This document shows positions 5,734 through 64,000 of a stretch of 64,000 nucleotides of DNA, piece after piece. The stretch is from an uncultured Alloprevotella sp. (GTDB lineage: Bacteria; Bacteroidota; Bacteroidia; Bacteroidales; Bacteroidaceae): contig CALUNU010000004.1 of assembly GCA_944322095.1 (NCBI GenBank), forward strand, positions 1-64,000, written 5' to 3'. Made by a program: the position numbers and the translations under genes. How positions within the stretch are numbered: position 1 is the stretch's first letter; the number at the start of each line of letters is the position of its first letter. Below the pieces are notes generated by a model. That model worked only from the letters and a program-made list of their open reading frames with translations. It searched no databases and had not been told where the DNA came from.

Positions 5734-7221
5734 TTATTGATCCGTCGACTTCCAGTTGCGTTCCAAGTTGGTGTTGGCTTGGAGGTCGTTGCTGGGGATT
5801 TCCCATACGAACTTCTGGTTGTCGGCCGATATTGAGAGGTTCTGCGTGTTCATCTCGGTAGAGAGGATGGCCGTGCTGAACGATTGAGCAGGCTTACGCG
5901 TGAAACCTTCGTGCCAGCGCTTCAGGCAGTCGAGGCGGAAGCCTTCGCCCACCATTTCGCGCACCCACTCGTCCTTCATGTCCTGCACGAGCTGGTCGCC
6001 CGTGGAGCTCAGGGCCGATGCGCCACGGCTCTGGCGCAGGGTGTTGAGGTAGCCCAGGGCAGCACCCTCGTCCTTGTTGTCCTTCATCAGTTCGGCCTCG
6101 GCGGCGATGAGATAGAGCTCGGCCGAACGGAAGGCTTTCGTCATATTGTAGAAGTCCGTTTCGCTTTGACGCAGGGCGGGGTTGCCGGGATACTTGTTGA
6201 ACATGTAGCCTTCATCCCTTGCACCACCGTTGGCACTGAGGTTTACCTCTACGAAGTAGGTGCTCTTGCGGTAGTCGCTGCTTTCGTACATATCCATCAG
6301 GCCTTGCGTGGGCAGGAACGACGGATTGTAGCGGCGCAGGCTCGTGTTATAGGAGATGTAGATGCCGGCATATCCCATACCCAGCTCGTTCGGTGCAATC
6401 AGGATGGGCTGATAGATGATTTCCGACCCGGCGTCGTTGCTCCACATCGAAGCAAACGTGGCGGCGTCGCTGATGAGCGGATACTTGGCCATGAGGCTCT
6501 GTGCCTTCGTGGCGGCCTCGTCGTAGCGGTGCATGTAGAGGTCCATGCGTGCTTCCAGCGCGTCGAGGGCGTCTGTGCCCGGCTCGGTGACGGTGCCCGT
6601 CGTCTTCAGGTACTGATGGGCGCGCTCGATGTCGTCCATGATGAACTGGTAGGTGGCTTCGAGCGTTGAGCGGCGGGGCTTGGCGTTCACGTCGACTGTT
6701 TCGACGAGGGGCAGGCCCAGTTCGCCGGCAGCCGTGGCGGGCTCATAGTCCTTGCAGTAGCGCACGACCATGTTGGCGTAGGCGTAGGCGCGGGCAAAGT
6801 AGGCAGCGCCCTTGATGTTGTCGAGATAGAGCTGGTCTTCGTCGGTTTCCACCTGAATTTTATCAATGTTGTTGATAATTTCGTTGGCATTGGAAATCAA
6901 CGAATAGTTGTTGATCCATTTTGCATCTCCTGCAAACTGCATCGTGGTGAAGGACCAATCGTGCTCCTGCTGCAAGCTGGTTGCTCCAAACGTCGTGTTG
7001 AACAAGTCGGTCTGCATCTCAGATACGTACACCTGAGAGCCGCCGATGACATTACGCAGGGCAGATTGCAAGCCGACATAATAGTTCGTGGCGTCGCTCA
7101 CCTGCTCCCAGCTGTTTTCTTCCATGATGCTTCCGCGCGGAAACTGGTCCAATTCGCAGGAAGATACCAACGGCAAAAGCAGGGCCGAACCTAATATTGT
7201 CTTTGCAATATACTTATTCAT
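5734..7221 (-). CDS. SusD/RagB family outer-membrane nutrient-binding lipoprotein
   Basis: Surface lipoprotein that caps a SusC-type barrel and captures ligand. The 495-residue product has a lipobox ending LVSSC (Cys22). It then has the typical SusD N-terminal pattern (DQFPRGSI, SWEQVSDATNYYVGLQSALR), TPR-like helices (AYFARAYAYANMVVRY) and the late RSAELYLIAAEAELM plus LNTLRQSRGA pattern. It starts 31 bp after the SusC gene. The ligand cannot be read from sequence; the divergent sialidase 0.7 kb away suggests host-glycan sugars but does not prove it. Confidence 0.95.
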   Translation of the reverse strand: MNKYIAKTILGSALLLPLVSSCELDQFPRGSIMEENSWEQVSDATNYYVGLQSALRNVIGGSQVYVSEMQTDLFNTTFGATSLQQEHDWSFTTMQFAGDAKWINNYSLISNANEIINNIDKIQVETDEDQLYLDNIKGAAYFARAYAYANMVVRYCKDYEPATAAGELGLPLVETVDVNAKPRRSTLEATYQFIMDDIERAHQYLKTTGTVTEPGTDALDALEARMDLYMHRYDEAATKAQSLMAKYPLISDAATFASMWSNDAGSEIIYQPILIAPNELGMGYAGIYISYNTSLRRYNPSFLPTQGLMDMYESSDYRKSTYFVEVNLSANGGARDEGYMFNKYPGNPALRQSETDFYNMTKAFRSAELYLIAAEAELMKDNKDEGAALGYLNTLRQSRGASALSSTGDQLVQDMKDEWVREMVGEGFRLDCLKRWHEGFTRKPAQSFSTAILSTEMNTQNLSISADNQKFVWEIPSNDLQANTNLERNWKSTDQ

Positions 7222-20054: not shown

Positions 20055-20205
20055 GGTAAATTCCTAAAATATAAACCGGAGGAGGTGATAATGGTTGTTA
20101 AAATTTAGAGAGAAATGTCTCAATGTGGCAGTTTCGCTTCGAAATAGCGCGGTTCGTCGCTGCTCACCCGCCCGGAGCGGTCGTCCCGCCGTAAAACGAT
20201 TTGCG

Positions 20206-20935
20206 AGGCAGCCGTCCGCGCTGCGTTTGCGCTGTTCTGATGGTGTGGCTGCGTGGTGCATTTCCGCGGGAAACACCTGTGCTCGCTGCATACCACCGGT
20301 GTTGCTGCCGGGGCAGCCGTCCGCGCTGCGTTTGCGCTGTTCTGATGGTGCGGCTGCGTGGTGCATTTCCGCGGGAAACGCCTGTGTTCGCTGCGTACCG
20401 CCGGTGCATTCGCCGGGTCTGCCGGCCCTATCGGGGCCGCACTATTCTATAGCCGCGGGTGAGGGAAGCGAACCCGCGGAAGAGCGACAAGAGGCATGTT
20501 GGCCCCAAGGGGGGCCAACGTCTGCGGCGGTGCTTCGGTGCTGGGCGTGCATTGAGCTGCGGCGGCGGTTCAGCTTCTCTGTTGTTCGACCCCTTTGGGG
20601 CCGCAGATGGTGGATACATCTTTCCGCGGGTGAGCGGAGCGAACCCGCGGTTATAGAGTAGTGCGGCCCCGATGGGGCCGATGTCTGCGGGACAGCCGTC
20701 CGCGCTGCGTTTGCGCTGTTCTGGTGGTGCGGCTGCGTGGGGCATTTCCGCGGGAAACGCCTGTGCTTGCCGCGTACCGCCGGTGCATTCGCCGGGTCTG
20801 CCGGCCCTATCGGGGCCGCACTATTCTATAACCGCGGGTGAGGGAAGCGAACCCGCGGAAGAGCGTCAAAGGGGATGTGGGCCCCAAGGGGGTCCAACGT
20901 CTGCGGCGGTGCTTCGGCGTGCATTGAGATGTGCC
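20206..20935. repeat. Hairpin array 1
   Basis: A block of spacer units (GGCAGCCGTCCGCGCTGCG) at 20207, 20310 and 20692 alternates with a three-hairpin module. The module appears inverted at 20424-20520, direct at 20585-20682 and inverted at 20803-20900. Its hairpins are CCCCTTGGGG-type, CCGCGGGT/ACCCGCGG and GGCCCC/GGGGCC, with conserved TATAGAGTAGT between the last two. The array runs up to the dprA stop codon. Short open frames inside it repeat from copy to copy and are not credible genes. Confidence 0.9.
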
Positions 20936-20955
20936 GGCCGTTCGTCCTCTCCGGT

Positions 20956-22062
20956 TCATTCCTGCCACAGGTAGCGGCCGCCGGGCAGGGGCTTGACGAG
21001 TCCTTTCATTTCCAGTTCGAAGAGCAGGGCGGTCAGGCGGTAGACGGGCAGGTTGGCCTCTACGGCCAGGCGGTTGATGTTCATGCCCTCGGTGCCGCGC
21101 AGCAGGTCGCGCACGCGCGTCTCCTCCGTCGTCAGGGTGGGGAAGAGTTCGCGCTGTACGGGCTTGTCGGGCGCGGCCGTCTGCCATCCCAGGGCCGCGG
21201 CCACGTCGGCGGCCGACGTCACCATGGCGGCGCCGTTGCTGCGTATCAGGGCGTTGCACCCTGCGGAATATTCGTCCGTCGTGCGTCCCGGAAAGGCCAG
21301 TACGTCGCGGCCATATTCGCGCGCCAGCCGTGCCGTGATGAGGGCCCCGCCGTGGCTGGCGCTCTCCACGACGAGCGTGGCGTCGCTCATGCCCGCCACG
21401 ATGCGGTTGCGGCGCACGAAGTTGCCCTTGTCGGGGTTCGTTCCGAAGGTATATTCGGTGAGCAGTCCGCCGTGGCGCGTCATTTCGACGGCCGTAGAGC
21501 GGTGCAGCGGCGGGTAGATGCGGTCGAGCCCGTGGGCCAGCACGGCCACCGTGGGCAGACCCGCGTCGAGTGCGGCGCGGTGGGCGTGTATGTCGACACC
21601 ATAGGCCAGTCCGCTCACGATGAGCGTGCCCGGCACGAGCTGCGCCAGGTCGCGGCAGAGCGCGGCGCAGAGCCGTTTGCCATATTCCGTGATGCGCCGC
21701 GTGCCCACCACCGTGAGCACGTGGGGCGCGTTGAGGCAGGCCGTGCCCCGCCCGAAGAGCACGAGGGGCGCGTCGGGGCAGGCGTCGAGCCGCCGCGGCC
21801 AGCCCGCTGCGGCGGGCGTGAGCACGTCGATGCCTTTCTCGGCGGCCAGGCGCAGCTCCGTCCCGGCATGAGCGAGCGCCTCGTCCCACGCCGCCAGCGC
21901 ACGGCGCAGGCGTGGCGTGGCGTCGGGCGTGAGCGTTTCGGGCGCGTGGCGCCGCTCGTAGACGGCCGCGGCCGACCCTGCCGCGCGGTAGAGCTTCAGG
22001 GCCGTGGCCGTCCCGATGCCCGGCAGGCGGCTCAGCGCCAGCGCACAGAGCGTTTCGTCCAT
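20956..22062 (-). CDS. dprA: DNA-processing protein DprA (Smf)
   Basis: DprA binds single-stranded DNA and loads RecA during natural transformation. The start MDETLCALAL gives 368 residues, the usual length; the frame upstream only overlaps the thioesterase gene. An N-terminal helix-hairpin region (ALSRLPGIGTATALKLY) precedes the Rossmann core with VVGTRR, SGLAYGVDIHAH, GGLLTEYTFGTNPDKGNF and VRRNRIVAGMSDATLVVE. A C-terminal winged-helix segment (MNINRLAVEANLPVYRLTALLFELEMKG) ends the protein. Last gene of a three-gene operon; hairpin array 1 begins just past its stop. Confidence 0.95.
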   Translation of the reverse strand: MDETLCALALSRLPGIGTATALKLYRAAGSAAAVYERRHAPETLTPDATPRLRRALAAWDEALAHAGTELRLAAEKGIDVLTPAAAGWPRRLDACPDAPLVLFGRGTACLNAPHVLTVVGTRRITEYGKRLCAALCRDLAQLVPGTLIVSGLAYGVDIHAHRAALDAGLPTVAVLAHGLDRIYPPLHRSTAVEMTRHGGLLTEYTFGTNPDKGNFVRRNRIVAGMSDATLVVESASHGGALITARLAREYGRDVLAFPGRTTDEYSAGCNALIRSNGAAMVTSAADVAAALGWQTAAPDKPVQRELFPTLTTEETRVRDLLRGTEGMNINRLAVEANLPVYRLTALLFELEMKGLVKPLPGGRYLWQE

Positions 22063-23820: not shown

Positions 23821-23850
23821 GACTAAGGGCACAAGGCCTGTATCGTGAAA

Positions 23851-23858
23851 CAAAAGTA
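23851..23858 (-). promoter_or_regulatory. Promoter -7 box for the DUF2851-thioesterase-dprA operon
   Basis: Minus-strand TACTTTTG 31 bp upstream of the DUF2851 ATG. Confidence 0.55.
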
Positions 23859-23902
23859 CGGAATTTTTCTTTTCGCACCACCACCGTATCGTCAAAATGC
23901 GC

Positions 23903-25110
23903 CATGTCGGGCTGCGGAGATGCTCCTGCAGTCGTACTTCGCAGTTGTTCGACCCCCTTGGGGCCGCAGATGATGTGCGCCTCCCTCCGCGGGTTCGCTT
24001 CGCTCACCCGCGGTTACAGAGTAGTTCGGCCCTTTTAGGGCCGGCCGCATCAGAGGGTGGCTGTGGGTTCCGCAGGGTTCGCTTGGCTCACCCGCGGTTA
24101 CAGAGTAGTTCGGCCCTTTTAGGGCCGGCCACATCAGAGGATGGCTGTGGGTTCCGCAGGGTTCGCTTCGTTCTCTCTGCGGTTATCGCGTGACACATCT
24201 GTCGGGGCGCGTGCTTCCGCGAGGCCGACTGCCCCATCGGGGCCGCACTATTCTATAGCCGCGGGTGAGCGTAGCGAACCCGCGGAAGACCGTCAAAGGA
24301 GATGAGGGCCCCATGGGGGTCCAACGCCTGGGGCGACGCGTCAGTGCATGTCGGGTTGCGGAGATGTTCCTGCGGTCGTTCCTCGTTGTGGTTCGACCCC
24401 CTTGGGGCCGCAGATGATGTACACCTCCCTCCGCAGGGTTCGCTTGGCTCACCCGCGGTTACAGAGTAGTTCGGCCCTTTTAGGGCCGGCCACATCAGAG
24501 GGTGGCTGGCGTCTCCGCAGGGTTCGCTTGGCTCACCCGCGGTTATAGAGTAGTTCGGCCCTTTTAGGGCCGGCCGCATCGGAGGGTGGCTGGCGTCTCC
24601 GCAGGGTTCGCTTCGCTCTCTCCACGGTTATGGCGTGACACACCTGTCGGGGCGCGTGCTTCCGCGAGGCCGACGGCCCCATCGGGGCCGCACTATTCTA
24701 TAGCCGCGGGTGAGCGTAGCGAACCCGCGGAATACCGTCAAAGGAGATGAGGGCCCCATGGGGGGCCAACGCCTGGGGCGACGCGTCAGTGCATGTCGGG
24801 TTGCGAAGATGTTCTGGCAGTCGTTCCTCGCTGTGGTTCGACCCCCTTGGGGCCGCAGATGATGTGCATCTCCTTCCGCAGGGTTCGCTCCGCTCACCCG
24901 CGGTTACAGAGTAGTTCGGCCCTTTTAGGGCCGGCGGCATCAGAGGGTGGCTGGCGTCTCCGCAGGGTTCGCTTCGCTCACCCGCGGTTACAGAGTAGTT
25001 CGGCCCTTTTAGGGCCGGCGGCATCAGGGGGTGGCTGGCGTCTCCGCAGGGTTCGCTTCGCTCCCCCGCGGTTACAGAGTAGTTCGGCCCTTTTAGGGCC
25101 GGCCGCATCG
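23903..25110. repeat. Hairpin array 2 with 84-bp units nested in a 445-bp higher-order repeat
   Basis: The marker CATGTCGGG recurs at 23903, 24347 and 24792, a 444-445 bp period. Inside each period an 84-bp unit is repeated. CCGCAGGGTTCGCTT or a close variant starts at 23987, 24070 and 24154, then 24431, 24515 and 24599, then 24876, 24960 and 25044. Each 84-bp unit contains ACCCGCGGTTACAGAGTAG followed by the perfect hairpin GGCCCTTTTAGGGCC. Inverted copies of the general module sit near 24230-24330 and 24675-24770. No credible gene inside. Confidence 0.93.
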
Positions 25111-25181
25111 TGTGTGACTGACGCAATTTCGCGCTGTATGTTGTGGCTTATCCTTCGTCGGATGGTTGCCTGTGAAAACGG

Positions 25182-25520
25182 TTTTTTAACACGGAGCGTA
25201 CTTTGTTTTCGGGCACGTGCATCTTTGACTGCATTTGCACGAATAATGGAAATGCTTGATATATAGGAGGAAAGGACTCTTTCTTTACTTCGAGGTTACC
25301 TGGAAACGCGAATTTTGCCGCTATATGGCGTAAATGAGGCCGAATTTTTCATCCGAAACATCCCGTGGAGCTCGATACCGATGGGATGGATCGGCCGATC
25401 CATCCCATCGATTTTCAGAAACATCTCATGGATGGATGCGGCAGGGCCCTGCGGGAGCCGTTGAAGCGCTGAAAAGCGTGTGGGTACGGCTGTCCGCTTT
25501 AACGCTTTGCCAAATGGCGC
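25182..25520 (+). repeat. Dispersed 339-bp intergenic element, copy B
   Basis: Begins with six T and AACACGGAG, as copy A does. It contains GGAAATGCTTGAT and CCGCTATATGGCG near 25317-25330, a perfect 32-bp palindrome at 25379-25410, and ends GTCCGCTTTAACGCTTTGCC then AAATGGCGC. Same order and length as copies A and D. Lies between hairpin array 2 and a terminator. Confidence 0.85.
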
Positions 25521-25663: not shown

Positions 25664-28294
25664 TTACTTCACAACCACCTTTTGGCCACCGATGATGTAG
25701 AGGCCGGCGGGCAGGCCGTTGGCAGCCTGGCTGCGCTGTACGCCCGTGCGGAGCAGGCGGCCGTCGATGCTGTAAACGTCGACGGGAGCGTTGGCGGCAT
25801 CGGCCGTTACGCCGTCGATGCCTACTGTGCTGTCGGCCAGACTGATGCCGATGAAGTTGGTGTTGCTCGTGCCGGCGATGGTGAACGTTACGGTTTCGAA
25901 CTCACCCGTCCACGTGTAGGTGGCGTCGTCCCACGTGCCGCAGTCGGCCGTGGCCGAGAACTTGTCGCTGCCGTCGTACCACGTGATGGCGGTGAACATC
26001 TTGCCTTCGGGAGCCGTGAGCGTTACGGTGGCACCCTTGTAGACGCGTAACTGAGGCAGCTGCGTCGTAAAGTTGAGATACATGCGCGGAGCCGTCGAGC
26101 CGCCTTCGGCCGTCAGCGTTACGCCGTCCTGCGTGATGGGGGCGGTGATGTTGCCCTGCGTCGGGTTGTTGCTGTCGGAAACGGGCAGGCCCCATGCGTT
26201 GGCGTTGAAGTTGAAGACAACGTCGGCAACGGGAGGCTCGGGGCCGACGGGCTCGTCGCCGCCTTCTTCGCCGCGGATGACGACGTTGCGCACTTCCCAC
26301 GTGCCGGCTACGTCGGCCGTGCTGGTGTAGACGAAGGCAATCTGGATGGTCTTGCCGGCGTAGGCCGAGAGGTCGGCCGTGGCGTCCACGAAGGTCCAGC
26401 CGTCAGCTTCGGGCCAGCCCGTCACGTCGAGCTTGGTCCATTCGCCGCCCTGCTCGCGTACCTGCACCGAAACGGCGTCGGCCAGGGTGCCCTTGAAGAA
26501 GTTGCAGGCCTGCTCGAAGGTGAGCGTCACGGTGCCCGTCTGGGCCGTCAGGTCGATTTCGGGCGAGATGAGCCAGCTTTCGGCAGCATAGTTGGTCTCG
26601 TTGACGTAGGCGCTGGCCTTGATGCACGAGTAGCGGTCGTCGTTGTTCCATACGTAGGAGAGCTCTTCGGGCATCGTCACGTTGTCGATGGTGAAGTCGC
26701 CCTGATCGGCAGCGAACGTCTCGCTGAAGATGACGCCTTCCTCGACGGGAGGCTCGGGCGTCGTGCCGCTTTCGCCGCGTACGGTGACGTTGCGCACTTC
26801 CCACGTGCCGGCTACGTCGGCCGTGCTGGTGTAGACGAAGGCGATCTGGATGGTCTTGCCCGCATAGGCCGAGAGGTCGGCCGTGGCGTCCACGAAGGTC
26901 CAGCCGTCAGCTTCGGGCCAGCCCGTCACGTCGAGCTTGGTCCATTCGCCGCCCTGCTCGCGTACCTGCACCGAAACGGCGTCGGCCAGGGTGCCCTTGA
27001 AGAAGTTGCAGGCCTGCTCGAAGGTGAGCGTCACGGTGCCCGTCTGGGCCGTCAGGTCGATTTCGGGCGAGATGAGCCAGCTTTCGGCAGCATAGTTGGT
27101 CTCGTTGACGTAGGCGCTGGCCTTGATGCACGAGTAGCGGTCGTCGTTGTTCCATACGTAGGAGAGCTCTTCGGGCATCGTCACGTTGTCGATGGTGAAG
27201 TCGCCCTGATCGGCAGCGAACGTCTCGCTGAAGATGACGCCTTCCTCGACGGGAGGCTCGGGCTGCTCGCCTGCCTCGCCTTGGCCTTCGACGCTGACGT
27301 TCTTCACTTCCCACGTACCGGCGTCGCCGTCCTGGCTGGTGTAGACGAAAGCGATTTCAATGGTCTTGCCCACGTAGGCCGAGAGATCGGCCGTGGCATC
27401 TACCCAGTCCCAGTTGTTGCCTGCGGGCCATGCGCTCACGTCGAGCTTGGTCCACTGGCCGCCCTGCTCGCGCACCTGTACGGAGAGAGCGTCGGCCACG
27501 GCACCGTCGAAGAAGTTGGCGCAGTGGGAGAAGCTCAGCGTGGCTGCGGTGGCTTTCGTCAGGTCGATGGCCGGCGAGATGAGCCAGCTTTCAGCAGCCA
27601 GGTCCTGGCCGCCGATGAAGCAGCTGGCCTTCATGTAGCCGTGGGAGCTGTCGTGGTTCCATACGTAGCCACCGCCGGCGGGTTCCTGCACGTTGTCGAT
27701 GGTGAAGTCGCCCTGGCCGTCGGCAAACGTCTCGCTGAAGAACGTGACGTCGCCGCCGACGGGCGGTTCGGGCGTGTCGCCGCCACCGTCAACGGAGGTT
27801 TCGGTGCAGGCCACGGCGATGCTCTTCACCCAGACGGCTTTCGTGTTGTCGTCGATGGTGATGACGCCGTCAGTGGCCGGGCCCGTAAAGGTGTACACCT
27901 GGTTGGCGTTGGTGGTGCCGCTGGCGATTTCCGTCACGTCGCCCGTGAACTCAACGCCGCCCACGTTGACGCTGATGGTGTTGCCTGCACCGCTGGCCGA
28001 GGCTGTGATGCTCACGGACGTCACCTGCGTGAGGCTTTGACCGGCCGTCAGCGTGAACACGCCGGCGGGATTTTTCGACGAGCCGAACTGAACGCCACGG
28101 GGTTCGTATGTGCCGCCCCCCTGTACGTTTTTCTCAAACTGCTGAGACGCGATGCTGGCCGTCCATGGCAGTTCACCTGCCCCGACAGTCAAGTCCTTGT
28201 CCGTAAAGACCGAAGACACATCGGCACTCATCGTTCCGAACACGGCGGCAAAGAGCACCGTGAGGAACAACTTCAAAGTGTAGAATTTCTTCAT
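25664..28294 (-). CDS. Large secreted T9SS cargo protein with tandem adhesin-like domains
   Basis: An 876-residue exported protein; the ATG gives signal MKKFYTLKLFLTVLFAAVFGTMSA. Residues about 25-180 form a beta domain shared with the paralogue at 30328-32094. Three copies of a roughly 168-residue jelly-roll module follow (about 181-350, 353-520 and 521-688). Each has SETFA, QGDFTIDNV, AESWLISP, DLSAY.GKTI.IAFVYTS and GTWEV.NV, resembling cleaved-adhesin/MAM-like domains. Copies 2 and 3 are almost identical even at DNA level. A further beta domain and a C-terminal sorting domain (VDVYSIDGRLLR, NGLPAGLYIIGGQKVVVK) finish the protein. Ligand unknown; carbohydrate or protein adhesion is a reasonable inference. 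Confidence 0.85.
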   Translation of the reverse strand: MKKFYTLKLFLTVLFAAVFGTMSADVSSVFTDKDLTVGAGELPWTASIASQQFEKNVQGGGTYEPRGVQFGSSKNPAGVFTLTAGQSLTQVTSVSITASASGAGNTISVNVGGVEFTGDVTEIASGTTNANQVYTFTGPATDGVITIDDNTKAVWVKSIAVACTETSVDGGGDTPEPPVGGDVTFFSETFADGQGDFTIDNVQEPAGGGYVWNHDSSHGYMKASCFIGGQDLAAESWLISPAIDLTKATAATLSFSHCANFFDGAVADALSVQVREQGGQWTKLDVSAWPAGNNWDWVDATADLSAYVGKTIEIAFVYTSQDGDAGTWEVKNVSVEGQGEAGEQPEPPVEEGVIFSETFAADQGDFTIDNVTMPEELSYVWNNDDRYSCIKASAYVNETNYAAESWLISPEIDLTAQTGTVTLTFEQACNFFKGTLADAVSVQVREQGGEWTKLDVTGWPEADGWTFVDATADLSAYAGKTIQIAFVYTSTADVAGTWEVRNVTVRGESGTTPEPPVEEGVIFSETFAADQGDFTIDNVTMPEELSYVWNNDDRYSCIKASAYVNETNYAAESWLISPEIDLTAQTGTVTLTFEQACNFFKGTLADAVSVQVREQGGEWTKLDVTGWPEADGWTFVDATADLSAYAGKTIQIAFVYTSTADVAGTWEVRNVVIRGEEGGDEPVGPEPPVADVVFNFNANAWGLPVSDSNNPTQGNITAPITQDGVTLTAEGGSTAPRMYLNFTTQLPQLRVYKGATVTLTAPEGKMFTAITWYDGSDKFSATADCGTWDDATYTWTGEFETVTFTIAGTSNTNFIGISLADSTVGIDGVTADAANAPVDVYSIDGRLLRTGVQRSQAANGLPAGLYIIGGQKVVVK
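26284..27261 (-). repeat. 504-bp tandem duplication inside the cargo gene
   Basis: Sequence from about 26284 to 26757 recurs at 26788-27261 with an offset of exactly 504 bp (168 codons). Only a few third-position changes are visible, for example GGCAATCTGG against GGCGATCTGG. A third, more diverged copy follows to about 27770. Confidence 0.93.
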
Positions 28295-28435
28295 GACTTT
28301 TGTTGGATTAAAATAGTGAAACATGTTGATTGGTTTTCTCATCTTGTGTTTTGGGGTGGCCCGGGCTGCCTCGTAGGCCGCGCTCTTACCGCGATGGCGG
28401 GTGGCTCTGCCGCGCAAAGCCAGACTTTCCCGTTG

Positions 28436-28443: not shown

Positions 28444-28603
28444 CGAAATGCGGACACAGGCGTCAATATAAAAAAGCATAAAAACCTGTGACGTTTCCGT
28501 GACGGAGGCTTGATGCGGCCTGTAGGTCCGCCGTCAGAGGTGTTCGTCTGTGTTGCTGCATGCGTATGTGTGTGGCTGTTGCGGTGGCGTGGGGCAGGCT
28601 TCG

Positions 28604-29985
28604 GAGCTGCGGCGGTGGTTCGGCTTCTCTGTTGTTCGACCCCCTTGGGGCCGCAGATGGTGGATGCATCTTTCCGCGGGTTCGCTCTGCTCCCCCCGCG
28701 GTTATAGAGTAGTGCGGCCCCGATGGGGCCGATGTCTGCGGGGCAGTCGTCAGCGTTGCGTTTGCGCTGTTCTGATGGTGTGGCTGCGTGGTGCATCTCC
28801 GCGGAAATCGCTCATGGCCGCGGCGTACCTCTGGTGCGTTCGCCGGTTCTGCCGGCCCTATTGGGGCCGCACTATTCTATAGCCGCGGGTGAGGGAAGCG
28901 AACCCGCGGAATACCGTCAAAGGAGATGTGGGCCCCAAGGGGGTCCAACGCCTGTGGCGGTGGTTCAGTGCTGGGCGTGCATTGAGCTGCGGCGGTGGTT
29001 CGGCTTCTCTGTTGTTCGACCCCCTTGGGGCCGCAGATGGTGGATACATCTTTCCGCGGGTTCGCTCTGCTCACCCGCGGTTATAGAGTAGTGCGGCCCC
29101 GATGGGGCCGATGTCTGCGGGGCAGCCGTCCGCGCTGCGTTCGTGCTGTTCTGATGGCGTGGCTGCGTGGGGCATTTCCGCGGAAATCGCTCATGGCCGC
29201 GGCGTACCTCTGGTGCATTCGTCGGGTCTGCCGGCCCTATCGGGGCCGATGTCTGCGGGGCAGCCGTCCGCGCTGCGTTCGTGCTGTTCTGATGGCGTGG
29301 CTGCGTGGGGCATTTCCGCGGAAATCGCTCATGGCCGCGGCGTACCTCTGGTGCGTTCGCCGGGTCTGCCGGCCCTATCGGGGCCGCACTATTCTATAGC
29401 CGCGGGTGAGGGAAGCGAACCCGCGGAAGAGCGTCAAAGGGGATGGTGGGCCCCAAGGGGATCCAACGCCTGTGGCGGTGCTTCGGTACTGGGCGTGCAT
29501 TGAGCTGCGGCGGTGGTTCGGCTTCTCTGTTGTTCGACCCCTTTGGGGCCGCAGATGGTGGATGCATCTTTCCGCGGGTTCGCTCTGCTCACCCGCGGTT
29601 ATAGAGAAGTGCGGCCCCGATGGGGCCGATGTCTGCGGGGCAGCCGTCCGCGCTGCGTTTGCGCTGTTCTGATGGTGCGGCTGCGTGGGGCATTTCCGCG
29701 GGTTCGCTCTGCTCCCCCCCCCCCCGCGGTTATAGAGTAGTGCGGCCCCGATGGGGCCGATGTCTGCGGGGCAGTCGTCAGCGTTGCGTTTGCGCTGTTC
29801 TGATGGCGTGGCTGCGTGGGGCATTTCCGCGGAAATCGCTCATGGCCGCGGCGTACCTCTGGTGCGTTCGCCGGGTCTGCCGGCCCTATCGGGGCCGCAC
29901 TATTTTATAGCCGCGGGTGAGGGAAGCGAACCCGCGGAAGAGCGTCAAAGGAGATGTGGGCCCCAAGGGGGTCCAACGCCTGTGG
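28604..29985. repeat. Hairpin array 3
   Basis: Alternating direct and inverted copies of the three-hairpin module. Direct copies lie near 28636-28735, 29017-29112, 29533-29635 and 29695-29765. Inverted copies lie near 28850-28950, 29380-29475 and 29880-29980. They are separated by the GGCAGCCGTCCGCGCTGCG spacer and a GAGCTGCGGCGGTGGTTCGG spacer. The interval between GAGCTGCGG markers is 380 bp for the first pair and 518 bp for the second because one spacer unit is duplicated. One hairpin loop contains a run of 12 C at 29714-29725. No credible gene inside. Confidence 0.9.
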
Positions 29986-30038
29986 TGCAACGTATGCGTA
30001 CGGTTGCGGCACTGCACGCGCAGGTGCAAAAAAGAAAA

Positions 30039-30070
30039 CGGGCGGCCTGCGCTTTTTGCGCGGCCGCCCG
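30039..30070 (-). terminator. Terminator after the 59-residue peptide gene
   Basis: Arms CGGGCGGCC.GCGC and GCGC.GGCCGCCCG around a short T loop, then a T-rich run on the minus strand. Confidence 0.75.
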
Positions 30071-30113
30071 CCAGGGTGGGATGAGGGTTTGCCCTCACGT
30101 ATGGGCTGGAGTC

Positions 30114-30293
30114 TTAGTCCTTCATCTCGCTCCACAGGCTGCTGTCCCATGCTCCGCCGTCGTTGCGGTTGCTGAGCTGGGTGCCGTTGCCCACGGCGTC
30201 GTGGTAGCTTGCGGGGTTGTCGCCGCTGGCGGCAATCATGCCTTCGGTGTTGAGGTTGATGATTTCTATGGAGGGCTTGATATACTTTTTCAT
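30114..30293 (-). CDS. Small 59-residue peptide gene downstream of a T9SS cargo gene
   Basis: A short open frame begins with ATG at 30293 and ends with TAA at 30114-30116. It starts 34 bp after the stop of the cargo gene and ends 43 bp before a terminator, so it looks like the last gene of that operon. The peptide begins MKKYIKPSIEIINLNTEGM, continues IAASGDNPASYHD and ends SSLWSEMKD. It has no signal peptide or membrane segment. The MKKxYxxPxxE start followed by a hydrophobic stretch and a Ser-Gly resembles short peptides common beside surface-protein genes in Bacteroidales. Function unknown. Confidence 0.7.
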   Translation of the reverse strand: MKKYIKPSIEIINLNTEGMIAASGDNPASYHDAVGNGTQLSNRNDGGAWDSSLWSEMKD

Positions 30294-30327
30294 GACGTTG
30301 ATGATGTTTTTGCGTTGGGGAATGTGA

Positions 30328-32094
30328 TTATTTTACGAGCACTTTCTTGCCATTCACGATGTAGATGCCTGCGGGCAGGCCGTCGGTGGAGGTGCCCATG
30401 CGGACGCCGGTGAGCGAGTAGACGGCGGCGGGGGTGTTGTTGGCTTCGGTGGTTACGCCGCTGATGCCCGTGGTCGTGCCGTCGAGGACGAAGCCGCGCA
30501 CCTGGCTGGCTACGGTCTGCGGCAGGGCGAGGTAGGCCTTGCCGGCACCGCTCTCAAAGGCAGCACCGTCGGCAGCGCCCCAATAGAAGCCCAGGTTTTC
30601 GTGGTTCTGGTCGTACGAAAGCATGTAGAACAGGCAATCCTCGCCCTCGGTCTTGCCGCCGTTGACGGAGCCTTTCAGGTAGTTCACCTCGGGAGCGTCG
30701 GGCGTCTCGGTGGAGAGGTCGTAGGTATAGGTCTTGGCAGCGCCCTTGAGCAGCAGGCCCGTGTTGGCAGGCACGATGGAGCGGGCGGGGTAGCAGTAGT
30801 CGACCCAGAGGTTGCCGTTGGCAGCGCCCGTCACGATGCCGCCCTCCACGCCCTCGGGCATGACGAAGGCTTTATCTGTGAAATAAGTGCTATAACCGGG
30901 AGCTCCAATGGAGAACGTACCCGTGGTAGCGGCTTCGTCAACTGCTTCAACGGTAACTTCATCTAAGAAAAAGCGTTGCTTACCTCCCGTGCTCGCGAAT
31001 TCAATTTGGATATCCCCTTCTGCTTCGAATTCAATTGAATAAATTCCAAATTCATCGTTTTCTTCTCCTGAAATGGAGAAGGTCTTTGAAGTGATATTTC
31101 CGACTGTGACCGTAAGTTCAGTCTTATCACCCTTCCACCCATGGGCGAGGAACGTGAGTATTACTTTTCCTGAAATCGAAATAGATGGAGTAATAGCTGT
31201 TCCCCCGTCGCTACCTGTTCCAATTTTTAAGCAATTAAGGGCGCAATAAGCTTTCGTCAATTGCCAGCCCTCATGGTCACAGCTTGTGCCATCCTCTTCT
31301 GATGAGCCTGCACTGTTCCAACTGCCATTTCCTTCTTGACATTTGTTGAAGCTTTCGTAGAAAATGACATTATCTGGCAAGGGAGGAAGAATTTGATAGC
31401 TCTTGCTGATTTCTTTGCTCTTGTTGCCATTTTCATCTTCGGTATATGCGCTTACCGTAGTCGTTTCGTTGATGTTGATTGGTTGCTCATATTTTGTTGC
31501 GTCACCCCCATTCAACGAGTAGTAAATGGCATCATTATTTTCAGAGGTCAGTTCAAGAATTTGAGCACCTCTATAAGTTCCTTCTTCAAGAGAAAAAGTT
31601 GGGGGGGTAACAATTATAGTAGAACCACCTGCACAAGTTATGCGAATCTCTTTAATCCAAACAGAACTTTTTGAGTGTTTGATAGAAATTTCGACGGTTC
31701 CATCAGTTGCATTTCCTGTAAAAGTGTATTCCTTGTTTGCGTTAGCTGTTCCAGAGACAATATCTTTACTATTTTCAAATGCTTCATTACCGACACTAAC
31801 GCTCAGTGAGTTCCCGTTGCTATTTGTTGATGCAACGACGGTGACAGACGTAACTTGCGTAAGTGGTTTGTTACTGGTAAGAGTGAAATCACCTTGTTTA
31901 CTGTACTGAACTCCACGTTTGTAACTAGAATTTTCAAACTTAGAAGCCTCTTTGGTAGAAGTCCAACCTAATTCTCCCTCACCTACGGCCAAGTTTTTGT
32001 CTGTAAATGTGGAAGATTCATCTGCATTCATTGTTGCAAACACGACAGCAAAGAGCGCCGTGAAGAACAACTTCAAGAAAGTAAATTTTTTCAT
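30328..32094 (-). CDS. Secreted T9SS cargo protein, paralogue of the 25664-28294 product
   Basis: A 588-residue exported protein; the ATG gives signal MKKFTFLKLFFTALFAVVFATMNA. Residues about 24-175 match the N-terminal domain of the 876-residue protein (FTDKNLAVGEGELGWTS, KPLTQVTSVTV, TGNATDGTVEISI). Next comes an Ig-like module of the chitobiase C-terminal type (about 180-255, EGTYRGAQILELTS, AIYYSLNGG). A jelly-roll-like module follows (NVIFYESFNKCQEGNGSW to FFLDEVTVE). A long Gly-rich region and a sorting domain ending LPAGIYIVNGKKVLVK finish it. DNA of the 5' two-thirds (about 30950-32094) is clearly AT-richer than the 3' third, suggesting a mosaic origin. Function unknown. Confidence 0.85.
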   Translation of the reverse strand: MKKFTFLKLFFTALFAVVFATMNADESSTFTDKNLAVGEGELGWTSTKEASKFENSSYKRGVQYSKQGDFTLTSNKPLTQVTSVTVVASTNSNGNSLSVSVGNEAFENSKDIVSGTANANKEYTFTGNATDGTVEISIKHSKSSVWIKEIRITCAGGSTIIVTPPTFSLEEGTYRGAQILELTSENNDAIYYSLNGGDATKYEQPININETTTVSAYTEDENGNKSKEISKSYQILPPLPDNVIFYESFNKCQEGNGSWNSAGSSEEDGTSCDHEGWQLTKAYCALNCLKIGTGSDGGTAITPSISISGKVILTFLAHGWKGDKTELTVTVGNITSKTFSISGEENDEFGIYSIEFEAEGDIQIEFASTGGKQRFFLDEVTVEAVDEAATTGTFSIGAPGYSTYFTDKAFVMPEGVEGGIVTGAANGNLWVDYCYPARSIVPANTGLLLKGAAKTYTYDLSTETPDAPEVNYLKGSVNGGKTEGEDCLFYMLSYDQNHENLGFYWGAADGAAFESGAGKAYLALPQTVASQVRGFVLDGTTTGISGVTTEANNTPAAVYSLTGVRMGTSTDGLPAGIYIVNGKKVLVK

Positions 32095-32191
32095 GTTTGT
32101 TTGTGTTGATTGGTTTGTTATGTACAATGTTGTTTCGCTGTTTGGGGCCCGCACGCGGGGCGCACGGGCACAGGGGTTTCATCTCGCGGTG

Positions 32192-49691: not shown

Positions 49692-52600
49692 TTATCGGAG
49701 GATTACTTTCTGTCCGTCCTTGATGTAGACACCGCCTTTCGAGGGCTTCAGCACACGGCGGCCCGAGAGGTCGTAGATCTTGGAGGCTTTCTTACCGTCG
49801 GTTTCGATGGAGTCGATGCCATCTGTCGTTCCCGAGTCGATTTTGATGAGCAGTGTGGCGGGCGTATCTGCCTGGCCCACGTAGTATGCTGTGTTGGCGG
49901 CCAGACTGCGTGCGTCGGCTGCAACGCGGGTGAAGACGGCCTCCGTTTCGCTTTCGTTGAGGCCGAGCGTATAGGCATTTACGTCAGCGTCCAGGCTTGT
50001 GGCCATCGTTGTGCCCGTAAAGCCGGTGGCAAGGGGTTCTTCGGAGTTGTCGTTTTGGATGGCGAGCGTATAGGTGCCGGGGTCGCCGCCAAGCAGTACG
50101 GGAGTGTTGGCCGGGATAGCGCTGCCTGCTTCTGCTTTTACAGTGAGGGAGCCTTCTTCTTCACCCGTAGCGGCATAAGCCGTCAGGCCTTCGGGCAGTT
50201 TCACGGACACGGGGAGGGTGAGGGTGGCATAGCCCCCTTCGCCGATGGTTGCTGTCACGTTTCTCACGCGCTCCATCATCCACAAGTTGCCTGCATCGGC
50301 TGAGCCGTTTTTCCAGGTCCCGATTTCATGGCTGTCGGGGTTGCCGTTCGGTCCGTCATAGTGGCGTCCGTTGAGATAAGTGTTGGTCAGCGATGAGTTG
50401 GTCACGTTGAGTGTCCAGTTGGTGGCTTCCGTGCCTTCGCCGATTTCCATGACAGAGGCAGCGTCGGCGGTTCCCAGCGTGGTAACATCATCTCCTGCCA
50501 CAAAGTAGGCGTCGGCGTTTAGGTTTTTCAGTTTGTAGCCTTCAGTTTCCGTGCCTTCGAAGCGCCAGAGAGCTCCGTAGTCGCTGTCGCCGTCTTCTTC
50601 CGTCGTTATGACATTGCCTGTGATGCTTCCGTCTGCCGTGAGTGTTTGGGAAATGCTGCTCATAGACTCTTCAGCACGCGGATTGTATATGCGGTACACC
50701 TCGGCTGGGTCGAACTCGATGAGACCTCCCGTCTCGTAAGCGTCCTGCATGGCATACAGGCCTTCGCGGCTGGGATTGTTCTGGGCAGCTTCGTAGGCAT
50801 CAGTGGCCTGGTCGTAGCTGCGGGCCCCGACGTAGTTGCCCGTGGAGGAGTAGGATGCCCAAAGTCCCTCGACGACATCAGCCATCGAGCCTTCTCCCGC
50901 CGGGCGGAAGATGTATTGGCTTCCGGGATCGGTGATTTGCAGGTTGTTGTAGGTATTGATGACCCATTTCATGTTGGCTGCTTCCCCGTTAGCGGTTCCG
51001 CGGTCGTTCAGCATGACGTCATCGGCCGTCTTAATGAGGTAGTAGCCTTGTTCTCCTGAGAATACAAGTTGAAACTCTCCTGAGTTTTCCGTGTCATACT
51101 GCATGTATTTGAAGGTTCCGGTCGGAGTGATGTTGCCGTTGTTCCAGTCGTCGCGGGTTTCTCCCTCTACATAGTCGATAGGCATCCCGTCGACGGTGAA
51201 CATTTTGAAATGGTTCTCGTCGGAGCCGGGTTCAAAGTAGAACAACTGGTCTGCCAGGTCGTGTCCGTTGTTCGTGTCGGACGAGTTCTTCACCTGGATT
51301 GCTTTGTATCCATTGTGGTCTCCCAGCGTCCAATAGAATGGGCCGCCGGCAGTCTCCGGGCGGTTGTTTTCGATGCGGTAGTAATATTTGGTATTCTCGT
51401 CGCTATATTTGAAAATATAGTCGCTCGGAGTTACAACGTCGCCTGCCCCAGGCTGGCGGACTGCTTCGTTCGGCCAAGGGATGACCTGGCCCGTTGCCTT
51501 GTACGACGGCCGCTGGGCATCGTAGGCTTTCAGAGAGTCGGTGAGCTCTTGTGCCAGCTGTTCAACGAGCTCTTCCTCTGTTGAGGCCAGGTCGTTTTCT
51601 TCGCCGGGGTCTTCCTCGATGTTATAGAGGCGGAGCTCCTGCGTTTCCCAGAAATAGATCAGGTGGTATTTGTCCTTCATGATGGCCGAGTAGGCGCCGT
51701 AGCCCTCGTTGCGGTCTTGCGTCTCGCCCCAGAGGTTGGGGAAGTGCCATATGTTGACGCGGTCGCGCTGGATGTTGGGGTCTTTGATGAGGTCGACGAA
51801 ACTCTTTCCGTCTACAACCTGGTGCGTCGTATAATCGGTCACACCGGCCATTTCAAGGATGCTGGGGAAGAAGTCTTCGATCATCACCCGGTTGGCGTTC
51901 TCGGTGCCTGCCTGGCTGTCGGTCACACCGGGCCAATAGACCATCATGGGTTCGTGTACACCGCCCATATATGAGGAGCCTTTGCCGGCGCGGTGCGGGT
52001 AGTTCTGGTCGTGGTTGGCGCGGCCTTGGCGGACGCCCTGGCTCTGCCCGCCGTTGTCCGACATGAAGAGCAGGATGGTGTTCTTGGCCACGTCAGGATG
52101 TTTCTCCAAGTAGTCCATGATATCACCCAAACTCTTGTCCATGCCTTCGACGAGGGCTGCATGGTTGATTTCGCTTTGGTTCAGCTCTACACCGAGCATG
52201 GGGTCTATCTTCCCCTTGTAATTTCCCGAAAATCTGGTGTCTTCGTCTGTGTACGGAACGTGGATGGCGTAGTGCGACATGTAGAGGTAGAATGGTCTGT
52301 TCTCCTCGTTGTTGTTCAGGAACTCATCCATCGTTTTGATAGCTTCACGGGTGAGCGCTTCGGTCAGGAAGAGGCCTTCGCTTTCGTACTCTTCGAGTCC
52401 CGGGATGGGGTAGTTGGAGTTGCCGTAGGGTGGCAGGTATCCTGCGGGGCCGCCGGCTGCACTTCCTGCGATGTTGACGTCGAAGCCCATGGTCAGCGGG
52501 TCAGCTCCCGACGTTTCTTTAGAACCGAAGTGGGCCTTTCCGCAATGGATGGTGTAGTAGCCATTGTTGTGCAGTATCTGCGGAAGCGAGGTCACAGGCG

Positions 52601-53015
52601 TGCCGTTATCCAAGTCGTGCTCTGTGGCGGTGGCGGCAGGCTGTATGCCGTTGTAGTTCCAGTCGGGCAGTTCGATGACGCTGCTGCCGGCGTCGGTCTT
52701 CGTGTTATAGTTCAGCGTCCAGTTGGTCACACGGTGGCGTGCGGCGTTCATTCCCGACATGAGGCTGGCGCGCGAAGGAGAGGATATGGCACAAGCGTAT
52801 GCTTGGGTGAACTTTACGCCCAGTTGTGCCATGCGCTCCATGTTGGGTGTGCGGTAGCGCTCGTTCAGGGGTGTGGGCTCCGAATAGAACGGGACGGATG
52901 TCTCTTGCCAACCCATGTCGTCGACAAGGAACATGATGATGTTTGGCCTGTCTTGGGCAAGGGCTTGCGAACCGATGCCTGTTGCCAGAAGGCCGAGAGG
53001 TAGAAGTTTTTTCAT
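49692..53015 (-). CDS. Secreted sulfatase with T9SS type-A sorting domain
   Basis: Predicted type I sulfatase acting on sulfated glycans outside the cell. The ATG at 53015 gives signal MKKLLPLGLLATGIGSQALA and 1107 residues. The catalytic domain starts RPNIIMFLVDDMGW (metal-binding Asp pair). It has the formylglycine motif SSPSR with Ser78 as the modified residue, GKAHFG, MSHYAIHVPY and FMSDNGGQSQG. The Ser-type motif needs an anaerobic radical-SAM maturase, not seen in this window. Residues beyond about 560 form two long beta-rich, RICIN- or lectin-like regions, then a sorting domain ending IYDLSGRRVLKPSKGGVYIK...VILR. The substrate is not identifiable. Confidence 0.88.
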   Translation of the reverse strand: MKKLLPLGLLATGIGSQALAQDRPNIIMFLVDDMGWQETSVPFYSEPTPLNERYRTPNMERMAQLGVKFTQAYACAISSPSRASLMSGMNAARHRVTNWTLNYNTKTDAGSSVIELPDWNYNGIQPAATATEHDLDNGTPVTSLPQILHNNGYYTIHCGKAHFGSKETSGADPLTMGFDVNIAGSAAGGPAGYLPPYGNSNYPIPGLEEYESEGLFLTEALTREAIKTMDEFLNNNEENRPFYLYMSHYAIHVPYTDEDTRFSGNYKGKIDPMLGVELNQSEINHAALVEGMDKSLGDIMDYLEKHPDVAKNTILLFMSDNGGQSQGVRQGRANHDQNYPHRAGKGSSYMGGVHEPMMVYWPGVTDSQAGTENANRVMIEDFFPSILEMAGVTDYTTHQVVDGKSFVDLIKDPNIQRDRVNIWHFPNLWGETQDRNEGYGAYSAIMKDKYHLIYFWETQELRLYNIEEDPGEENDLASTEEELVEQLAQELTDSLKAYDAQRPSYKATGQVIPWPNEAVRQPGAGDVVTPSDYIFKYSDENTKYYYRIENNRPETAGGPFYWTLGDHNGYKAIQVKNSSDTNNGHDLADQLFYFEPGSDENHFKMFTVDGMPIDYVEGETRDDWNNGNITPTGTFKYMQYDTENSGEFQLVFSGEQGYYLIKTADDVMLNDRGTANGEAANMKWVINTYNNLQITDPGSQYIFRPAGEGSMADVVEGLWASYSSTGNYVGARSYDQATDAYEAAQNNPSREGLYAMQDAYETGGLIEFDPAEVYRIYNPRAEESMSSISQTLTADGSITGNVITTEEDGDSDYGALWRFEGTETEGYKLKNLNADAYFVAGDDVTTLGTADAASVMEIGEGTEATNWTLNVTNSSLTNTYLNGRHYDGPNGNPDSHEIGTWKNGSADAGNLWMMERVRNVTATIGEGGYATLTLPVSVKLPEGLTAYAATGEEEGSLTVKAEAGSAIPANTPVLLGGDPGTYTLAIQNDNSEEPLATGFTGTTMATSLDADVNAYTLGLNESETEAVFTRVAADARSLAANTAYYVGQADTPATLLIKIDSGTTDGIDSIETDGKKASKIYDLSGRRVLKPSKGGVYIKDGQKVILR

Positions 53016-53208
53016 GATAGTGGTTTTGTGATAAAAAAGATGTCTGTTCTCTCGTTGTGTCGGCCGAGCGTCTGTTGCGGGGCCCGAAACGGCGGTAAAG
53101 GTATGAAAAAAAAAGTTTCTTATCCGCTTTTTCATTTGTTTTACCGAGTTAAAAAAGCCTTTTTCCCTCACGGGGTGTCCGGTTGTGGCAGGCTTGGATA
53201 TAAAAATA

Positions 53209-53231
53209 GCCCCGCCAGCGGGTGACGGGGC
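53209..53231 (-). terminator. Terminator after the POT transporter gene
   Basis: Arms GCCCCG and CGGGGC followed on the minus strand by TATTTTTAT, 24 bp past the stop. Confidence 0.65.
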
Positions 53232-53254
53232 GTGATTGATGCGGAGAAAAGGGG

Positions 53255-54787
53255 TCAGCACACTTTTTCCAGCCGCTTCATGATCGAGAAGATGAAGATG
53301 GCCGATATGAGGCATAGTGCGACGAGCACAGACCATACGATCCAAAGGGGCAGCTGTCCCCACAGGAAGCCCGGGATCGAGACCAGCAGATTGCCCACGG
53401 CCGTGGCTACGAACCAACCGCCCATCATCAGGCCTTTGTATTTGGGAGGAGCCACTTTCGATACGAACGAAATGCCCATGGGCGAGAGCAGCAGCTCGCC
53501 GAACGTCAGCACGAGATAGGTGCACACGAGCCAGTTGGGCGAAACGAAAGAGGCTGTTCCGGCTTCGATGGCTGCTTTCTGTTCGTTGGGCGAGAGCAGA
53601 CCCATCGAGGCGGCTATCATCAGCACGTAGCCGCAGCCGGCCACGAGCATGCCCAAGCCGATCTTGCGCGGGGCCGAGGGCTCTTTGCCCCGCTTGGCCA
53701 GCGCGCCGAAGATGGCCATCGACACAGGCGTGAGGGCTACCACGAAGAACGGGTTGAACTGCTGGAAAATGGGGGCAGTAACGCTGATGCCGTCGGCGGG
53801 CAGGTTCTCGTATTGTGCAATGAGGCCGCCGATGGCTGCCAGGATCACGAGGAGCGAGATGATCTTCCCTTTTCCCGTTTTCGATTGGAAGAGCGAGAAC
53901 AGCGCGTAGACGATGAAGATGACCAGCGTCAGGTTGAGCACGTTGAACATCATGCTCTGAACGCCCGAGCTGTGGCGGGCGGTGAACTGCTCGGCGAAGA
54001 ACGTCAGCGTCGAGCCGTTCTGATGGAAAGCCATCCAGAAGAAGATGACCACGGCGAACACGAGGCACAGCGCCACGATGCGGTCTTTTGTCTCCTTGGG
54101 CGTGAGCTCAGGCTCGGTGTGCTGTCCCGGCACGTCGGCGGTTGCGGTCTTCGAGTTGCAGTCGGCGTGTTTGAACGTGCTGCGGAAGGAGTAGTAGATG
54201 GCGATGCTCACCACGAGCGAGAGGCAGGCCACGGCGAAAGCGTAGTGGTAGGCGTCGGCGGGCGAGGCTCCCCAGTGGGTCTGGGCGTACTCCATGATTT
54301 TGACGGCGGCCGTCGGTGCGAAGAGGGCGCCGATGTTGATGGCCATGTAGAAGATGGAGAAAGCCGAGTCGCGCTTGCCTTGCAGCTTGGGGTCGTCGTA
54401 GAGGTTGCCCACCATCACTTGCAGATTGCCTTTAAAGAGGCTCGTGCCGATGCACACCATGAGCAGGGCGGCAAACATGAGCACCATGGCGGGCACGCCG
54501 TTGCCTGCCGGGATGGAGAGCATGAGGTAGCCCAGAAACATCACGATGATGCCCGTCGTCACGCATTTGCCGTAGCCGATGCGGTCGGCCAGCGCGCCGC
54601 CCACGAGGGGCAGAAAATAGACCAAGGCCAGGAAGCCAGCATAGACGGCGCTGGCCGTGCCTTCCGTCCAGCCGAAGTTGGCTTTCAGGAAGAGCGTGAA
54701 GATGGCCAGCATGGTGTAATAGCCGAAGCGCTCGCCGGTGTTGGAGAGGGCCAGGGCAAACAATCCTTTGGGTTGTCCTTCAAACAT
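53255..54787 (-). CDS. POT/PTR family proton-dependent oligopeptide transporter
   Basis: A 510-residue MFS transporter of the POT family importing di- and tripeptides with protons. The family signature NTGERFGYYTM near residue 16 (ExxERFxYY pattern) is present. So are GGALADRIGYGK, FSIFYMAINIGALFAP (PTR2 motif), a central cytosolic stretch and ENLPADGISVTAPIFQQFNPFFVV in the second half. About 14 membrane segments. Last gene of a likely operon starting at the T9SS type-B gene; the gap to ybaK is 22 bp. Confidence 0.93.
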   Translation of the reverse strand: MFEGQPKGLFALALSNTGERFGYYTMLAIFTLFLKANFGWTEGTASAVYAGFLALVYFLPLVGGALADRIGYGKCVTTGIIVMFLGYLMLSIPAGNGVPAMVLMFAALLMVCIGTSLFKGNLQVMVGNLYDDPKLQGKRDSAFSIFYMAINIGALFAPTAAVKIMEYAQTHWGASPADAYHYAFAVACLSLVVSIAIYYSFRSTFKHADCNSKTATADVPGQHTEPELTPKETKDRIVALCLVFAVVIFFWMAFHQNGSTLTFFAEQFTARHSSGVQSMMFNVLNLTLVIFIVYALFSLFQSKTGKGKIISLLVILAAIGGLIAQYENLPADGISVTAPIFQQFNPFFVVALTPVSMAIFGALAKRGKEPSAPRKIGLGMLVAGCGYVLMIAASMGLLSPNEQKAAIEAGTASFVSPNWLVCTYLVLTFGELLLSPMGISFVSKVAPPKYKGLMMGGWFVATAVGNLLVSIPGFLWGQLPLWIVWSVLVALCLISAIFIFSIMKRLEKVC

Positions 54788-63916: not shown

Positions 63917-64000
63917 CTATTCCCAGCTGTGCTCGAACGGGTTTTTGCGTTCTGTCATGAACTCGCCGCCGTAGTCGCCCTCTTCGGGCGGCAGGATGGT
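63917..64000 (-). CDS. 3' end of a gene running off the right edge (last 27 residues)
   Basis: A minus-strand frame open from the window edge ends in TAG at 63917-63919. The visible C-terminus contains PPEEGDYGGEFMTERKNPFE and ends HSWE. It is followed by a terminator at 63842-63873, which supports a real 3' end. Too short for family assignment. Confidence 0.6.
   Translation of the reverse strand, partial: TILPPEEGDYGGEFMTERKNPFEHSWE

Follow-up and report, generated by a model that had tools for sequence, protein, structure and literature searches.

A short peptide gene behind a gene for an exported protein in Alloprevotella: a probable orphan precursor of an LPP-like RiPP pathway

The analysed DNA, a stretch of 64,000 nucleotides from an uncultured Alloprevotella sp. 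that is called the window below, contains a gene for a 59-residue peptide. This gene is probably an orphan precursor of a RiPP pathway that resembles the linear polyphosphorylated peptide (LPP) pathway, co-transcribed with an exported T9SS-type protein, while the RRE, the kinase and the peptidase are encoded in trans. The peptide belongs to a gene family that adjoins genes for exported proteins, the machinery is encoded in the same genome, peptide and RRE co-occur in two phyla, and several relatives contain complete clusters. The relevant features are:

30328..32094, (-): exported protein, MKKFTFLKLFFTALFAVVFA..., Fn3_assoc / CHB_HEX_C_1, with the C-terminal tail VYSLTGVRMG..GLPAGIYIVNGKKVLVK
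30294..30327, (-): intergenic gap of 34 nt, from the cargo stop to the peptide ATG
30114..30293, (-): 59-aa YxxP peptide gene, ATG at 30293, stop at 30114-30116, matched by paralogues and relatives
30225..30293, (-): leader-like part, residues 1-23 (Y4, P7, E10, E17, S23), from the family profile
30117..30224, (-): core-like part, residues 24-59, W-x4-W and an acidic end, from the family alignment
30025..30071, (-): terminator-like hairpin, stem ~30039-30071, U tract ~30025-30038, fold z = -4.6

The peptide gene and its family

The peptide encoded at 30114-30293 (-) is MKKYIKPSIEIINLNTEGMIAASGDNPASYHDAVGNGTQLSNRNDGGAWDSSLWSEMKD. The coordinates agree exactly with the original prediction, as does the distance to the cargo stop, which had been given as 34 bp and was measured as 34 nt; the start codon is ATG. 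The gap is similarly short at most family members, with a median of 29 nt among the g1 test loci that have a tail (see below). The predicted strong terminator corresponds to a strong GC-rich hairpin with a U tract 3′ of the gene (fold z = -4.6); a bulge is the probable reason for its absence from the output of a simple consensus terminator scan. An orthologue with 88% identity occupies the same position behind a like-tailed gene in another genome (L074), and the hairpin stem is conserved there. The dN/dS value of this single pair is ~0.47, with 12 nucleotide differences, which is only mild evidence of constraint.

A query with the peptide revealed five paralogues in the own genome (G000), and a profile of these found eight places, including the gene itself. 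The original prediction was staked on conservation in relatives, and 22 of the 24 same-genus genomes have matches to this profile (2-18 each), whereas none of 16 genomes from other families has one at E 0.1. Wider sampling revealed that other Bacteroidales families also carry the peptide, e.g. ~21 copies in G130 and 11-16 in G078, and the window peptide as a query matches assemblies of Bacteroidales, Bacteroidaceae, Prevotellaceae, Prevotella, and Clostridia. A chance open reading frame is refuted by the eight places in the own genome and by the ~150 matches to the family listed for the genus, in which Y, P, E, S, and W are conserved and the position of the gene is fixed; this reading retains next to no probability even if the dN/dS of just ~0.47 for a lone orthologue pair is counted in its favor. 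It is chiefly because of this family conservation, in the own genome and in the genus, that the frame is judged to be real. On the basis of sequence conservation, it is a gene and a member of a large uncatalogued family. No family of Pfam or NCBIfam matches the 59-aa peptide, in line with its original description as unannotated, and a search of solved structures with the peptide profile yielded matches at E > 1 only.

The originally described MKKxYxxPxxE start with a Ser-Gly at about 23-24 is essentially correct (Y4, P7, E10, S23, G24), and both the leader-like start and the Ser near position 23 are conserved across the family. In the family rows, the Pro is invariant and the Tyr is invariant except for one Phe. 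A Ser is present at Y+18 to Y+20 in 103 of 114 g1 rows and in 26/26, 8/8, 29/29, and 8/8 rows of the other four sets, i.e. in 174 of all 185 rows, and every row has a Ser or a Thr; the values at control offsets are far lower, and the peptide-finding profiles include the Ser column, so that the conservation is partly selected. Of the 114 g1 rows, 113 have a Trp among their last 20 residues, and the sole exception is a spurious frame. Some copies are only 35-45 aa long and contain little beyond the leader motif and a tail.

The RRE-binding motif [Y/W]xxPx[LVIAFY] is common to lasso, PQQ, and LPP leaders (PMC13381572). The N-terminus of the present family, with YxxP and a Ser at Y+18 to Y+20, resembles in sequence the leaders bound by RRE (PqqD-like) domains. 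Clostridial copies closely fit YxxPx[hydrophobic]E; in g1 copies, position P+2 is often S/T/A, i.e. not hydrophobic. A cargo-specific or species-specific C-terminus was also considered. This was rejected: each of leader, middle, and end is more similar within genomes than between them (z 3.5-6.3), and therefore the end carries no special signature.

Pairing with genes for exported proteins

The upstream protein had been described as T9SS cargo. This description, which is not confirmed, rests on its T9SS-like tail, its relatives, and the presence of SprA in the own genome (G000; TIGR04189, 2739 bits); no T9SS sorting-domain model matches: Por_Secre_tail (PF18962 / TIGR04183) gave no match at E 1 in 30328-32100. 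The original prediction also proposed a search for similar short frames beside T9SS cargo genes. The first peptides of g1 lie behind a gene ending in ..YDLSGRRV...KGIYI.NGKKV.VK at 32 of 34 loci (31 found by script and L021 by eye), the exceptions being L006 and L029. A tail model built from 28 g1 tails was tested on 80 further g1 loci, two of which are at contig edges, and the tail was found upstream in 69 of the 78 assessable loci, within 100 nt in 65 of the 69. The background of this model is 4 of 170 ORFs of at least 120 aa (window and nine g1 regions) and 1 of 974 antisense frames. It scores 68 bits on the cargo of the window, the tail of which is among those used to build the model. In a second genus, g108, the peptide lies behind a tail gene in 11 of 11 cases. 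The predicted operon-like pairing with a secreted-protein gene is upheld by these values.

Several of the nine g1 exceptions front or adjoin lipoprotein-like or fimbrillin-like genes (L117, L134, L157, L161, L086, the L086 paralogue in the own genome being L006), and the G078 copies that were looked at also lie before or beside such genes. In the own genome, seven of the eight copies are located behind a tail gene, and the remaining one lies in front of a lipoprotein-like gene. Only one of the three tail genes within the window has a YxxP peptide behind it. Many cargo-peptide gaps equal 1 mod 3, a frame bias that is likely due to shared ancestry.

SprA is absent from all three Clostridia genomes tested. 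Of 25 Clostridia loci, 20 have a long frame on the same strand that ends -4 to 35 nt before the peptide; of the other five, one is at a contig edge, at one the script picked a different frame, and three have gaps of 150-173 nt. Wherever its N-terminus is in view, the Clostridia partner has a signal-peptide-like start (L188, L194, L208, L211, L076, L079, L080); L077 and L078 have no exported-type gene upstream. The family extends beyond T9SS, since Clostridia without SprA (three tested) carry the peptides beside Sec-exported proteins; the constant feature is the exported partner, not T9SS itself. A T9SS-specific chaperone, which had been considered as a candidate function, is weakened by the same observation.

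Several side observations concern the exported-protein genes. Two further genes of the window, 25664-28342 (-) and 49692-53336 (-), encode the same kind of C-terminal tail and have no YxxP peptide behind them; the product of the former contains three choice-of-anchor-J stretches, two of which are nearly identical. A second YxxP peptide (L015, MKKKYQSPACKSIALETSHMLAASP...) spans the right edge of the window, with 63920-64000 (-) inside it and the rest extending to contig position 64090, and lies 4 nt behind another tail-bearing gene. The L029 copy is located behind an apparent type II topoisomerase subunit, i.e. a non-exported neighbor.

RRE, kinase, and peptidase genes

The own genome encodes a standalone RRE on contig C5 at ~59.4 kb (135.9 bits with the RRE profile), and the window precursor is on C4, i.e. 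on a different contig. PqqD (PF05402) was found in 14 of 15 peptide-bearing g1 genomes tested; the exception, G014, contains peptides, is 89% complete, and has no PqqD score. G024 has neither a PqqD nor a peptide match. In g1, the RRE (~89 aa) is surrounded by genes for an HprK-like protein of ~300 aa and a peptidase-like protein of ~150 aa. These genes are followed by an ABC-transporter-like gene, in some cases also by NTP_transf_5, in other Bacteroidales and in Clostridia, and G078, G042, and others have an NTP transferase and an MsbA-like exporter near the RRE. Examination of nine g1 loci showed no ABC exporter adjoining the RRE operon.

The kinase profile contains invariant SGTGKSTH, LLNDD, and PWSGKT motifs. 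The peptidase profile contains invariant S-M, H-R, and G-D, and its best solved match is SEC11C (E 7e-4), with SEC11A also matched; both are Ser-His signal peptidases. The model matches of kinase and peptidase lie below the curated cut-offs. In the g1 RRE operon, the kinase gene is preceded by a gene for an exported protein of ~140 aa (..VYxFGxxxNFxDSxxYxTxVQ..), for which no family was found; it is present at L224 (own genome, C5, reverse complement 6543-6963), and similar proteins are present at L226, L228, L234, L236, and L238.

Among 294 Bacteroidales genomes, the RRE was found in 11 of 13 genomes with the peptide versus 35 of 281 others (p 2.8e-8, kinship ignored), and in 6 of 7 versus 35 of 281 when the genomes that seeded the models were left out. 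The values for 197 Clostridia-type genomes are 13 of 16 versus 34 of 181 (p 6e-7, kinship ignored), and 10 of 13 versus 33 of 180 without the RRE seeds. Among the genomes with the peptide, 2 of the 13 from Bacteroidales and 3 of the 16 from Clostridia have no detected RRE, for which incomplete assemblies may be the reason in some cases, and 35 Bacteroidales and 34 Clostridia genomes with an RRE have no peptide at the thresholds used.

Precursor and machinery are physically clustered in some genomes. The order in G111, G147, G276, and G202 is T9SS cargo, RRE, YxxP peptide, kinase, and peptidase, and the cargo in all four matches Por_Secre_tail (PF18962) above the Pfam cut-off. An ABC-transporter-like gene is next in G111, G147, and G202 (that of G202 alone was run against Pfam) and is absent from the part of G276 that was read; the G147 peptide has a Thr in place of the Ser. 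In G042 the order is peptide, kinase, peptidase, RRE, NTase, and ABC, and in G237 and G132, at a distance of a few kb from the RRE, the peptide precedes a lipoprotein-like gene. A motif-bearing small gene is located near the RRE in four of eight RRE-positive genomes that had been picked without a peptide match (G074, G193, G100, G132, G061, G042, G237, G202). When 34 RRE loci (470 kb) were searched with a strict motif, six matches were obtained, all on the same strand and at most 5 kb from the RRE, and none elsewhere, where two of the six loci (L284, L286) had been chosen for their matches; Markov-made controls gave 0-5 matches anywhere.

These clusters bear on the possibility that the peptide is an unmodified cytosolic accessory protein, e.g. 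a cargo-specific escort or an expression regulator, with a coincidental YxxP start and an RRE operon that serves other substrates. The peptide has no signal sequence, as originally predicted, the pairing with exported proteins is strict (69/78) with one peptide per cargo, and no exporter adjoins in g1, all of which would fit such a role. It is nevertheless unlikely, as the same N-terminal motif is found behind unrelated cargo in two phyla and inside RRE-kinase-peptidase clusters, and the copies of 35-45 aa offer hardly more than the leader motif and a tail.

Comparison with LPP and the proposed pathway

LPP were described in 2026 for LppA/B/K/S/D/N of Paenibacillus alginolyticus (PMC13381572). 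The precursor motif in that report is YxxPxVLxHQxIxFETxxS; leader cleavage takes place behind the Thr, and an HprK-like kinase phosphorylates the Ser S3 (= Y+18) (PMC13381572). Compared with this account, the present system shares a short precursor with a YxxP leader and a conserved Ser ~18-20 residues on, a discrete RRE, an HprK-like kinase, an archaeal-type signal-peptidase-like protease and, in some genomes, an NTP transferase and an ABC exporter (PMC13381572). In contrast to LPP, which its authors report as restricted to Bacillota, it is present in Bacteroidales and Clostridia (PMC13381572). Further differences from LPP are up to ~20 orphan precursors scattered over a genome that encodes the machinery in trans, the location of each precursor beside an exported protein, a leader that retains YxxP and the Ser but lacks HQxIxFET, and the Trp-containing, acidic core end in g1. 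The precursor lies within the biosynthetic cluster in G111, G147, G276, G202, and G042, but not in the genome of the window. The window peptide is not filed as LPP, since neither the full leader motif nor the clustering is found in its own genome; by analogy, it most likely works like an LPP precursor.

A precursor of another RRE-dependent pathway (lasso-like, NTase-modified, or other), with differing phosphorylation and peptidase details, appears decidedly unlikely. Lasso leaders share the YxxPx[hydrophobic] motif, which the LPP report assigns to lasso, PQQ, and LPP leaders alike (PMC13381572), the RRE profile matches the lasso RREs TfuB1 (6jx3) and TbiB1 (5v1u), and NTP_transf_5 and ABC genes adjoin in some genomes. 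However, the HprK-like and signal-peptidase-like neighbors of the RRE are the LPP set, and neither a lasso cyclase nor a B2 protease was noticed among the ORF starts read next to the RREs. Lasso leaders have a penultimate Thr (PMC10368454), whereas the present family has a conserved Ser instead. Small leader-core peptides of Bacteroidales are also known from GG-leader/PCAT RiPPs and bacteroidetocins, which have GG leaders and C39 transporters (PMC10352776); the present peptides lack a GG motif. Our literature searches yielded no listed publication that pointed to a pairing of type IX secretion with a RiPP precursor peptide, and searches with sequence fragments matched no publication.

For the LPP-like pathway, we infer co-transcription, binding, phosphorylation, cleavage, export, and a joint function with the cargo. 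The peptide gene would form one transcription unit with its exported partner, and the YxxP leader (residues 1 to ~23) would be bound by the standalone PqqD-like RRE encoded in trans on C5 of G000. The conserved Ser23, by analogy the predicted phosphoacceptor near the predicted leader cut, would be phosphorylated by the HprK-like kinase from the same small operon as the RRE. The Ser/His signal-peptidase-like protease of that operon would cut near Ser23 and free the Trp-containing acidic core. The ABC exporter that adjoins in several relatives is a candidate export route; none was seen beside the RRE operon at nine g1 loci.

A tentative and rather doubtful extension is that the core, once processed and phosphorylated (or further decorated with nucleotidyl or sugar groups), is not a free natural product but acts together with the exported protein encoded beside it. 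If true, it could be a linker, a surface tag, or a maturation cofactor for T9SS and Sec cargo, and one modification machine would serve many cargo-peptide pairs in a secretion-coupled RiPP system of Bacteroidota and Clostridia.

The analysis provides a testable role for a large set of unannotated small genes of gut-type Bacteroidales and Clostridia, and its results suggest a pairing of exported proteins with small processed peptides in many gut-type bacteria. A pathway resembling that of LPP is thereby placed in a phylum from which the authors of the LPP report record none (PMC13381572), in an arrangement that is unusual for RiPPs: scattered precursors, a machine in trans, and a tie between each precursor and an exported protein. 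As the pairing occurs in two phyla, one of them without T9SS, this raises the question of whether processed peptides have a role in building or displaying secreted proteins.

Two minor observations concern gene neighborhoods. At L066 and L129, YxxP peptides are located behind genes ending in dockerin-like repeats, and at L129 the dockerin-like gene itself follows a tail gene. In the window, GC-rich, partly palindromic repeat arrays with many repeats (ccgcgggt..gaagcgaacccgcgg, gcggccccgatggggccg) lie between genes at ~28500-29990, and the ORF lists suggest similar arrays near 20060-21000 and 23850-25200.
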